DNA of 64,000 bases, from the NCBI RefSeq assembly GCF_000186865.1, contig NW_008705565.1:528440-592439 (forward strand). Direction: 5' to 3'. Under the pieces are notes generated by a model, which was given only the letters and a program-made list of their open reading frames with translations, made no database searches and was not told the DNA's origin. How positions within the stretch are numbered: the first letter of the stretch is position 1; every line of letters begins with the position of its first letter. This document shows, piece after piece, positions 28,777 through 33,177 of this stretch. Source of the stretch: Aureococcus anophagefferens. Taxonomy: Eukaryota; Sar; Pelagophyceae; Pelagomonadales; Pelagomonadaceae. The translations under genes were made by a program, and so were the position numbers.

Positions 28777-31700
28777 CTAGAGGTCCGCGTGGCCGTTGCG
28801 CTGGCCGTTCGTCGGCGTGTTGGCGATGTACTCCTCGTCGGCGGCGAGGAGGGACCGCATGGCCTTGGCCTTGGCCTCCTGGACGAGCGCCTTGAAGTAG
28901 CGGAGCTTGAGCTTCGTGTCCTCCGGGTCGCTGAACTCGACGTCGATGGTGCGGTGTGCGTAGATGAAGGAGAACGCCAGGGGCCAGTTCTTGGCGGACA
29001 TGGACTTGCGCAACGTCTTCGTGCCGCAGAGGAGCTTGCCCTGGGCCGCCGGGTCGAGGTCGTGCGCGCCGCGGACCTCGACGCACTCGGAGAGCGGGTA
29101 CGACTCGCCTTTCGAGCGCGCGGCGCCGCCGCCGGGCTTCTCCCAGTAGAGCGCCGCGCCGCCGTCCGTGAGCTTGAGCTTGCGCTTCTGGGCCTTGCCG
29201 TTCGTCGAGTGCTTGAGCACGTGGACGCCCTCGGCGACGAGGGCCTCGACGAAGCCCCGGAGCTCCGCCTGCGTCACCGTGACCTTCTGCTGGGGCTTGC
29301 GCTTCTCCAACAGCTTCTTGCGGAGCGCCGGCGCCATGTGGGCGCTGTGCTGCAACAATTTCTGGCGCAGCCGGCCGTAGGACTGGTGCGCGTCCGTGCC
29401 GTGGAGCGCCGACGACTCGTCGAGGTGCCGCGACGTCTGCTCGCGCGCGAGGACGCACTCGCGCTTCGCCTCGTCGACGATGGCCAATAGCTGGGCCTCG
29501 CGCTGCTTGGCCTTGGTCGCCTGGGCGCGCCAGGACTCCGCGCGCGCCTCCGCGCCCGCGCACCGCTCGCGGAGCGCCGCGTTCTCGCTCCGGAGCTCCT
29601 CGAGCGCGCGCGACGCCTCCGTGGCGACCTCGCGGGCGGCGGCGACGGTGGCCGCCGCCTCGGCGCGCGCCTTCTCGAGGATCTCCTTCTGCTTCTCGCG
29701 GTCGAGGTCCGCGGCGGCGTCCTTCCGCGCGTTCGACGAGAAGATGCCGCGCGCGACCGCGGAGCCCTTCTGGCGCGGCGGCGGCGGCAGGGGCGCCTTC
29801 TTCTCCTCCTGGGACGGCGAGCCCAGGTTCTTGAGCTTGGACTGGAGCGAGTCGAGGCGCTCGCCCTTGGACTTCATCTCGAGCACGAACGCGACGCGAT
29901 TCCGCGCGAGCTTCGGGCGCAGGAGCCGCGTCTGGAGCGCGAGCGACGCCGTCTTGGCCGAGGCGAGGTAGCCCACGAGGCGCACGTCGATGCCCCGCCA
30001 CACGGCCTGGAAGCGCACCGTCGCGCGGAGCACGCGCCGCTTCCGGCTCGCCGCGCGCCGCGCGAGGTAGCACCGGCCGTGGGTCTGGGCCACGAGGAGC
30101 CGCGCCTTGAAGCGCTTGAAGGCGGCGTAGGTCAGGTGGCGCCGCGCCAAGGCCTGGATCGTCGCCGCGCGGTCGAAGCACGCCGCCGCGCGCAGCGCCT
30201 CGAGGTCGTCGAGCGCGCCGTCGCGGAGGAAGACCTTCGTGCGCCCGACGAAGACGCGGCCCGCTAAGGCCTTCTTCCGCTTCTGCTTCGCCGCGGCCCT
30301 CGACCGCGGCGCGGCGTCGTCGTGGACGGCGTCGACGATGGCCAGCGCCGCGGCCTTCCACGGCGCGGCCGCCGCGACGACCGCGCGGTCCAGGATCAGA
30401 TCCTCGTCGTCGCCGTGCCTCAGGTCCGCCGCCGTCGGCGCGTCCAGGTCGTCGGCGCCGCCGTAGGAGTCGAAGGCGTCGTCGAAGTCGCCGAGGCCCG
30501 CCTGCTCCGCGGCCGCGCGGCACCGCTCCAGCGTCGCGGACGCGGCGGGCCCGACGACCGCGAAGCGCTCCACGAAGGCCCGCAGCGGCTTGCGGTCCGG
30601 GTAGCCCGCGCGCGCGACGCGCAACGCGCTCAGCACGCCGCAGCACCGCAGCTGCTCGACCACCGGCAAACGGTGGAACGCGTCCTTCGAGTCGATGGGC
30701 CGCGCGGCGTCGTTCGGGCCTGGGCAGGAAAAGAGTGATTCAACGTCGCTTCAACACGAGTGTTCCGCGCGAGCGCGTTCCGAAAAAAAGCATCCACGCT
30801 TCGAGGCCGTTCCGAAAGATGATCGCTCGTCCAAAACTCAGCCGAAACAAGTGGAAAACGGCCGAGCTAGGAGCCTTTGAAGTTGGGCATTTCGCTCTCT
30901 TTTCCTGCCCTGGTTCGGGCGGATGCAGCGCACGTAGCGGCACTTCGTCGCGGCGATCTGGCGCATGAGGTCGCGGAGCTGGGACCGGAACTTGCTGCCC
31001 ACGGTCTCCTGGCTGGACAGGTGGCTCCCCCGGCGCTGCGGCCGCCGGCCCGACGCGCGGCGCCCGCCGTCGCCGCCGCCGAACTTGGACCGCAGCAGGT
31101 TCGCGGCCTCGGCGGCGGCGAAGAGGGCCACGGGCGAGCTCAGCGACGCCTTCTCGTCGACGACGAAGGACGGCCGGTGGGCGCCGTCGCCGTCGACGGG
31201 CGTCGTCATCGCCTCGACCAATTTCGTGGGCAGGACGTCGCGGTTCCGCTCGACCCAGCCCTTCGACGTGTACATGACCGTCCCCGCGTAGTGGGCGATG
31301 GTGAAGGGCAGCGCCTCGCCGTCGCTGTGCTGCTTGATCTTGGGCGTCGCGAGGCAGGCGTGGCCCTTGTGGAAGTTGAGCAGCTTGTCGACGAAGTTGC
31401 TGTCGTTGCCCGAGTTGCCGCGGACGCACTCCTCGTTCAGGATGTCCACGAGCCCCGCCCGCGCCTCGATGAGGCGCAGCACCTCGGCGTTGTCGTCGAA
31501 GTCGACCTTGGTCCAGGGCACGCCCTCGGCGAGCAGCTCGCGCTGCGCTCGCGCGAGCACGTCGGCGACGAAGCGCTGCTGCAGCCGCTCGTTGGCCAGG
31601 TTGATGAGCAGCTGCTCGAAGCCGTTCGCCGACCCCGCGGCGCCGTAGAACTCGAAGCCGAACAGGTCCAGCATGCCGATGACGACGCCCGGCGGCCGCG

Positions 31701-33177
31701 CGTCGCCCTCGGCGCGCCGCGTCGCCGCGTTCGAGAGCGCGACGACCTGGGCAGCAAAAGAGAGATTCAATGTCGCTTCAATGTGAGTGTTCCGCGCGCG
31801 CGCGTTCCAAAAAAAAGCATCCACGCTTCGAGACCGTTCCGAGAGACGATCGCTCGTCCAAAAATCAGCCAAAACGAGTGGAAAACGGCCGAGAAAGGAG
31901 CCTTTGAAGTTGGGAATTTCGCTCTCTTTTGCTGCCCTGGCGACGACCTTGTCGAAGACGCGGCTGTAGAGCTCCTTCGCCAGCGCGTCGCGCGCGTCGG
32001 CGGCGGATTCCGCCGATAGAGCGACGGTCGCGCTGCGGATCTCGCGCAGCGTGAGGCCCCGCTCCAGCAGCTTGCGGTCGCAGCCGAGCGCGGCCGCGGC
32101 CCCGGTCAGCGCCGGCGGGTTCGCGACCTTGCAGCCGTCGTCGTCCACGGTCGAAATGACGACCGTGTCGAAGCGCACGTCGCCGAGGGCGAGCACGGCG
32201 TCGACGCAGTGCAACAAACCCGCGACCTCGCCGTCGTCGAGGCCGCAGACGGCCCGCAGCCCGTCGACCATGCCGCCGTGCGACGACAGGTCGTCCTTGC
32301 CGCGCGCGTGCGCCGCCGACGCGTCGGCGACGGCGTGGGGGTGCTCGCTCAGGTAGCTCGGCACCTTGTCGAGGCGCCCCGCGTCGGCCTCGCGCTTGCG
32401 GAGGTGCTCGTAGAAGACGTGGTACGTCCGCTCGCCCGACGCGCGCTCGACGACGCGCGTCTTCTCCAGCAGCGCCGTCTCGCACCAGCTCGACTCGATG
32501 GCCATCGTGTCCCGGTCGAACTCGACGCGCAGGAACTTGGCGAAGCGGCTCGAGTTGCCGTTGCGCAGCGTCGCCGCGTTGCCGAACGACTCGAGGAGCG
32601 GCCCCGCCCGGAGCACCTGCGCGACGATGGTCTTCGTCGCGGAGCCGTGCTGGGCGATGTCCGCGAGGTGGGCGAGCATCAGTTTCACCGTCTCCGTCTT
32701 CCCCGCGCCGGACTCGCCGGACACCAAGATGGACTGGTCCTCGCCGCGCGCGGCGCCGCGCGCCGCGGCGCCCGACACCGAGTAGACGTGCGCCGCGCGG
32801 CGCGTCTCGTCGCTCGACGGCGCGTCGCTGTGGAGCGCCCGTAGATCCTCCGTGTAGAGCGGCAGCCACTTGAAGGGGTTCACGGCGAGGACGACGTCGC
32901 CCGCGGCGACGTACGGCCGCCCCGCGGCGCACCGCCTCTCGATGGCCTCGAGGATCGTCGCCTCGTGGACGTGGCCCAGGTCGCACAAATCCTCCACGTC
33001 CCTCAGCTCGACGACCTCCTCCTGGACCATCTCCTCGGGCGGGAGCGTCACCTTCATGGGCCGGCCCTCGACGACGCCGTCGACGACCAGGCCGCCGACG
33101 TAGCGCTCCGGCGGATTCGGCACGGTGCACCGGGCCCAGACCTTGGACCCCACCGTGTCCTCGACGTAGATCTTCAT
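28777..33177 (-). CDS. myosin heavy chain with two introners and PH-like tail
   Basis: The product is 1332 aa from exons 33177-31948, 31746-30921 and 30719-28777. The motor domain has GSKVWARC, P-loop GESGAGKTET, switch I NGNSSRFAKF, IGMLDLFGFEFYG (switch II), the actin-binding CRYVRCIRPN and VVEQLRCCGVLSALRVARAG. IQ-like motifs (ATIQALARRHLTYAAFKRFK) and a coiled coil follow. The tail ends in a PH-like domain (~1190-1310; KLKLTDGGAALYWEKPG). Both introns are 201 bp and consist of a 193-bp introner plus one 8-bp target duplication. The first is GT-AG; the second uses a GC donor, with both splice joins restoring invariant motor sequence. Myosin class is not assigned. Confidence 0.92.
30720..30912 (-). 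mobile_element. introner element A1 (193 bp) in myosin intron 2
   Basis: An element of 193 bp with imperfect terminal inverted repeats (CTGGGCAGGAAAAGAG at one end, CTTTTCCTGCCCTG at the other), flanked by the 8-bp duplication GTTCGGGC at 30712-30719 and 30913-30920. Read in the gene's sense, the upstream duplication copy GCCCGAAC supplies the GC donor and the element end supplies the AG acceptor. It matches the copy at 31747 along its whole length. Confidence 0.9.
31747..31939 (-). mobile_element. introner element A2 (193 bp) in myosin intron 1
   Basis: Same length and orientation as the element at 30720, differing at scattered positions. Terminal repeats are CTGGGCAGCAAAAGAGAG and its near-complement. 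The 8-bp duplication GCGACGAC lies at 31739-31746 and 31940-31947; in sense it reads GTCGTCGC and supplies the GT donor. Removing it restores SRVFDKVVALSNAATRR. Confidence 0.9.

Follow-up and report, generated by a model that had tools for sequence, protein, structure and literature searches.

Two probable introners in a myosin gene of Aureococcus anophagefferens and the sequence rules of their family

How could one gene come to carry two introns of the same length and nearly the same sequence? The question is raised by a myosin gene in the window, which is the whole stretch of 64,000 bp that was analysed on contig 5 of the Aureococcus anophagefferens assembly (G000; 49.05 Mb, 86 contigs). The GC content of the window is 71.6%. 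Both stretches that interrupt the gene are very probably introners, namely 193-bp non-autonomous DNA transposons with inverted ends. Sequence evidence strongly favours the creation of introns by a short inverted-repeat DNA element that takes its donor from the target duplication and supplies the acceptor at its own end. The duplications, the inverted ends, the restored frame, the sense orientation, the copy number and a donor rule can be read directly at this level.

The interrupting stretches of the myosin gene

The myosin gene is located on the minus strand, with its ATG at 33177 and its stop codon at 28777. Exon 1 (31948..33177) begins at the ATG and its translation matches Myosin_head (PF00063). 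Exon 2 (30921..31746) is 826 bp long, and exon 3 (28777..30719) runs up to the stop codon. The predicted intron 1 (31747..31947; GT-AG) and intron 2 (30720..30920; GC-AG) are 201 bp each, and both consist of the intronic copy of an 8-bp target duplication followed by a 193-bp element. The intronic copy of intron 1 (31940..31947) would be the source of its GT donor and the element (31747..31939) the source of its AG acceptor, and the exonic copy lies at 31739..31746. For intron 2, the GC donor would come from the intronic copy at 30913..30920 and the AG acceptor from the element at 30720..30912, with the exonic copy at 30712..30719. In gene sense, intron 1 reads GTCGTCGC-CAGGGCAGC...GCTGCCCAG and intron 2 reads GCCCGAAC-CAGGGCAGG...CCTGCCCAG. 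The direct repeats are perfect at both sites, GCGACGAC around intron 1, where the match extends to 10 bp, and GTTCGGGC around intron 2. The two elements are 90.67% identical end to end, and the inverted ends of both, CWGGGCAGSAAAAGAG, exhibit a single mismatch at base 2.

The initial annotation had described one element at both sites, identical in length, with imperfect terminal inverted repeats and with its own perfect 8-bp duplication around each copy, and these points were borne out. It had also derived the donor from the duplicated host bases and the acceptor from the element end. That derivation stands, but the donor at 30720-30920 is GC and not GT.

Once repeat and element are taken out (201 bp at each site), a stop-free myosin frame of 1332 amino acids is obtained that ends at the stop codon at 28777. 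The joined motor segment matches a solved myosin Vc with an E value of 6e-51, and both splice junctions are free of gaps in the two best alignments to solved myosins, which are the two printed. The junctions align to solved myosin V as FDK/VV against FDF/IV and as CIRPND against CIKPND. A single Myosin_head stretch (2.3e-75) spans both junctions of the spliced segment. When intron 1 is kept in, this match splits in two and the best stretch ends near the insert; when intron 2 is kept in, a stop codon follows shortly past the junction.

Under the introner reading, a transposase acting in trans would insert the element through an 8-bp staggered cut and so duplicate 8 host bases. The resulting order in gene sense would be GYNNNNNN-CAGGGCAG...CTGCCCAG-GYNNNNNN, where GY denotes G followed by C or T. 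The donor used by the spliceosome would be the GY of the left duplicate, and the acceptor would be the AG with which the element ends on the right; duplicate and element would leave together, with the host frame exactly restored. Insertions that lack an in-register host GY, or that place the AG end upstream, would break the gene and be lost, so that the surviving copies would look sense and genic.

The window was scanned for 8/8 direct repeats (three or more different bases) that enclose 120-320 bp and whose enclosed stretch has 9 or more of its 12 end bases inverted. Among the 14 matches, the two myosin elements alone reach 11 of 12, and a BLAST search of the window at E 1e-3 revealed no copy beyond these two.

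Two other frames, both on the plus strand, lie next to the myosin gene. A BMT5-like rRNA methyltransferase frame (PF10354; 33465-34607) is directly upstream and divergent, and a putative rRNA methylase frame (PF06962; 27971-28720) ends near the 3' end of the myosin gene.

Copies, ends and orientation across the assembly

The initial annotation had proposed a search of the assembly for further copies, and many were identified. The exact 5' end occurs 439 times and the core 24-mer (up to 3 mismatches) 2164 times, pieces included. The reversed-pattern control gave 0 for both, which excludes chance. The core is present in 65 of the 66 copies that were selected by their exact end.

Loci were fetched by similarity to the query, by exact end (the first listed, 40 regions), by reverse body (13), by odd ends (4) and by an exact core at places outside the exact-end list (20). 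The coding sense of the 66 exact-end copies was judged from codon-position GC over 240 bp on each side. Both flanks are coding in the predicted sense in 62 of them (one miss each in loci L050, L052, L053 and L060), and the codon phase is unbroken over the excised stretch in 63 (misses in L030, L053 and L060). A wider set comprised the 106 core matches in the fetched loci, 100 of which have both ends; the other six, with an end unrecognised or beyond the locus, were excluded. The expected flank sense and a kept frame were found together in 66/69 copies with a forward body, 24/27 with a reverse body and 3/4 that were unclassed. Two more, in L026 and L040, fit once a shifted repeat is allowed, which brings the total that fit exact frame-keeping splicing to 95/100. 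The remaining five have a weak or one-sided codon signal (L050, L052, L060, L064 and L084), and masked stretches are present in L050, L064 and L053. None of these 100 copies has both flanks antisense. The initial annotation had named an entirely intergenic set of copies as contrary to its reading, and this outcome was not observed. The codon signal was read from the loci, and gene-distant copies could escape only through the choice of loci, not through the test itself. Intron phases 0, 1 and 2 are represented by 37, 30 and 23 of 90 copies. The length with the repeat is mostly 200-201 bp in this family.

The element end has the sequence CAGGGCAGSAAAAGRG. Across 96 copies that could be classed by orientation, 11 of the first 14 positions of the inverted ends are paired in at least 90 copies, position 11 in 83 and position 2 in none. 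Position 9 is paired in 78, compared with a shuffled mean of 47 and maximum of 62. The body lies forward with respect to the gene in 69 copies and in reverse in 27. In loci L066-L085, all 20 chosen as absent from the exact-end list, 12 forward and 8 reverse bodies were counted by eye. The second-last base downstream, which is the A of the acceptor, is A in all 96 copies in either body orientation. The second base upstream is A in 85 copies, G in 9, C in 2 and T in none; the absence of T is weak evidence alone, as few T are expected in 96 copies if the starting base is A. The copies were classed by their ends, and independent support for the asymmetry comes from the agreeing codon sense.

A strict pattern at 178-208 bp identified 113 CAGGG..CCCAG elements genome-wide; no element had CAGGG at both ends or CTGGG at both ends. 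A looser pattern identified eight elements with AG-forming ends on both sides, which are exceptions to the rule, and none lacking such an end on both sides. The eight are located at C4:1709907, C4:1761191, C9:871672, C13:238338, C13:1294372, C15:22934, C19:572253 and C21:630683 of G000. The one of these that was read, L064, has 261 of 801 bases masked as N. Its interpretation as non-coding was dropped, since the masking leaves the codon signal unreadable.

The reverse copies reach 98.1% identity to forward copies, and the nearest relative of 8 of the 27 reverse copies is a forward one. A single origin of the reverse-body type gave an approximately unbiased (AU) p of 0.70 with 17 reverse rows and 0.188 with 27, and the supported tree branches force at least 3 changes of body orientation. 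The body is flipped between relatives that are 98% identical while the asymmetry tracks the sense of the gene.

A search of the assembly for introner ends joined to other sequence, aimed at an autonomous element, found seven ends. Four are copies of the introner family (L028, L040, L064 and L065) and one matches the end of a listed family copy on contig 4. For the end in L062, neither a partner end nor an 8-bp repeat was present in the approximately 850 bp fetched beyond it. The seventh belongs to a 502-bp element at G000:C32:77547-78048 (L063:348-849). The first 17 end bases of this element are perfectly inverted (CAGGG...CCCTG) and it is flanked by an 8/8 duplication, GTCGCGCG. Its body has no BLAST match to the introner bodies, and it lacks the acceptor AG. 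By eye, it appears to be intergenic, between two genes and about 100 bp past an apparent stop codon. With its symmetric ends, this single element is consistent with an ordinary transposon, the acceptor base being the difference between it and the introner; it is possibly of the parent type. An 8-bp duplication and a CAGGG terminus, as in the introner family, are features of hAT-type miniature inverted-repeat transposable elements (MITEs).

These observations allow a further reading in which a single terminal base is the entire intron switch, although we consider this rather unlikely. The ordinary form of the transposon would, like the 502-bp element, end symmetrically in CAGGG...CCCTG, and a single T-to-A change at one end would give CCCAG and create the acceptor. 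Splice polarity would then be set at the ends and not in the body. The same change would open the lone mismatch at the tip of a long pre-mRNA stem and free the AG, and the stem of inverted ends would bring the AG near a donor of little consensus beyond GY. A stem between the ends was predicted in silico (mean probability above 0.5) in 85/96 copies, with at least 0.99 in both myosin introns, and the mismatch within its first 8 bases sits at the acceptor A. Whole-intron RNA folds of the two myosin introns are modestly better than shuffles (z of -2.0 and -1.0). The two ends covary at bases 7, 9 and 11 more strongly than in any of 2000 shuffles, and shared ancestry may account for this; in a tree-aware test of covariation, only 1 or 2 pairs fell on branches with support.

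Some copies are more diverged, and their ends are GC-richer and resemble GGCGGGAA (L015 +2372, L021 -1139, L025 -4555, L032 +3935 and L041 +4241). They may represent an older layer of this family.

The genic and sense context of the sampled family would also be expected if ordinary introns had been copied through RNA into new sites, as in the reverse splicing of fungal introners, which needs no DNA transposase. This origin is very improbable. The elements have 8-bp target duplications and inverted ends, the body occurs in both orientations relative to the gene, which strand-specific copying of RNA would not be expected to produce, and the 502-bp element combines a different body with these ends and an 8-bp duplication. 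Reverse splicing was rejected on the duplications and the flipped bodies.

Target duplications and the donor rule

The duplication is 8/8 in 74 of the 100 copies with both ends and 7/8 in 14 more, and the divergence between bodies is about 10% on average. As most duplications are intact while the bodies differ by this much, the insertions appear to be more recent than the diversification of the family. The claim of the initial annotation that the insertions are almost fresh holds only in part: it rests on the intact duplications and not on the similarity between the two myosin copies, which are about 9% apart. Among 70 sites with 8/8 repeats, CG occurs at the left edge of the duplication in 41 and at the right edge, which is exonic and has no splice role, in 25, compared with a background of 19.8% (p 0.002). 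This pattern would be expected if a DNA transposase preferred its targets symmetrically and splicing tightened the left edge.

The same annotation had called the two myosin copies twins. Their common gene, orientation and length could indicate a local duplication or a hop within the gene, but their kinship speaks against it. Their bodies are 90% identical to each other and up to 97% and 94% identical to copies elsewhere, and among 95 copies one is only the 43rd and the other the 66th closest to its partner. Their duplications differ, as do their end subtypes, with C in one and G in the other at base 9. A twin origin was rejected on the kinship ranks and is judged very unlikely; the two copies look like independent insertions.

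The donor follows a simple rule. GY is found exactly 8 bp 5' of the element in 419 of the 439 exact-end copies genome-wide. At the 70 sampled sites, the donor +1 base is always G, and the +2 base is C in 69% and T in 31%. In 98%, the donor is preceded by C or G, and no strong consensus is exhibited at +3 to +6.

The ratio of GC to GT in the coding flanks is about 4:1, and the share of GT among the two is 20% there and 33% in the donors (31/94; p 0.004). GT is thus favoured about twofold, and a GC donor seems about half as likely to be kept as a GT donor. Most donors are nevertheless GC because the targets are GC-rich. In A. anophagefferens, 39.6% of introns have been reported as GC-AG and the U1 5' end as normal, and the GC-AG excess was called an enigma in the portions of that report consulted (PMC3033335). 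The excess could plausibly be explained by donors co-opted from GC-rich targets, and the link between the abundance of GC donors and GC-rich targets is possibly new.

Several observations weigh against the introner reading. Twenty of the 439 exact-end copies have no GY in register; some of these have a shifted repeat (L026, L036, L040 and L048), and in L036 (2684) and L048 (5137) the repeat is 9 bp and the acceptor end is one base shorter (CTGCCAG), with the frame still kept. Intron 1, if retained, is open in frame and gives 1399 amino acids (67 extra residues), so the frame does not force its splicing, and the retained insert is open in 7 of 65 sampled copies. The sampled loci are not random and are mostly from contigs 1 and 2. 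No transposase was found with the hAT model PF05699, the one transposase family searched, and this model was equally silent in all 14 control genomes.

The open copies, with intron 1 among them over its 67 codons, would suit short mobile elements that are kept in mRNA as peptide inserts or that simply break genes, but this is the least likely of the explanations weighed and was rejected, since 58 of the 65 sampled copies, intron 2 included, run into a stop codon no later than the end of the insert, both myosin inserts fall within the aligned motor where the two best solved myosins have no insertion, and the in-register GY in 419/439 copies is unexplained without splicing.

Relation to known introners and significance

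The introner reading places the two myosin introns in a mechanism already known in kind, and their family is probably the very family that has been published. Huff, Zilberman and Roy are reportedly to be credited with the introner elements of A. anophagefferens in their 2016 paper (Nature 538:533).

The initial annotation had presented intron birth by transposition. The duplications, the inverted ends and the restored frame argue for it, but as a mechanism it is not new, having been reported for the introners of this species. From general background and from the excerpts of PMC7789003 and PMC10228655, the known introners resemble those in this work as short DNA-transposon introns with inverted ends, direct repeats, a co-opted splice site and both insertion orientations. 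According to the excerpt of PMC7789003, direct repeats and constant-length inverted ends are present in A. anophagefferens introners without exception, and that of PMC10228655 describes both insertion orientations and co-opted splice sites for the introners of that study. A characteristic length of about 210 bp is given in the part of PMC9481584 consulted, compared with the mostly 200-201 bp found here.

Two other systems were compared through the excerpted text of Gozashti et al. 2022 (PMC9860276). The family 4 introner of Aureococcus sp. is from the same genus and has an 8-bp target duplication as well; it brings both of its splice sites along and leaves 12 extra bp in the mRNA, whereas the donor of the myosin introners appears to be co-opted and nothing would be added to the mRNA. 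The Symbiodinium introner has inverted ends, brings its own 3' splice site and takes the 5' one from the duplication, but its duplication is 4 bp instead of 8 bp and its host is unrelated.

The family exhibits the hallmarks of introners, many similar introns at unrelated positions and a host frame restored on removal, and those of the Huff type of DNA-transposon introner, namely a duplication of fixed length, inverted repeats, and one carried and one co-opted splice site. Introners of the fungal, reverse-splicing type are recognised by the absence of target duplications and inverted ends, both of which are present here.

Three further points are possibly new: that one terminal base distinguishes the acceptor end from the other end, that the body occurs both ways round and yet the AG is always gene-downstream in the sample, and that an apparently intergenic 502-bp element has the same ends minus the AG. 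No statement of the terminal-base asymmetry was found in the available portions of the introner literature searched, which did not extend to the text of Huff et al. 2016; this is weak evidence of newness, since that key paper lay outside the search. With this asymmetry, the step from transposon to intron becomes testable by one base change.

The findings in this work point to a clear and well-replicated case of introns made by DNA transposons, in which a single splicing rule appears to be obeyed by nearly all exact-end copies. The co-option of GY suggests a simple answer to the enigma of GC-AG introns in A. anophagefferens, as that enigma is set out in the portions of PMC3033335 consulted.

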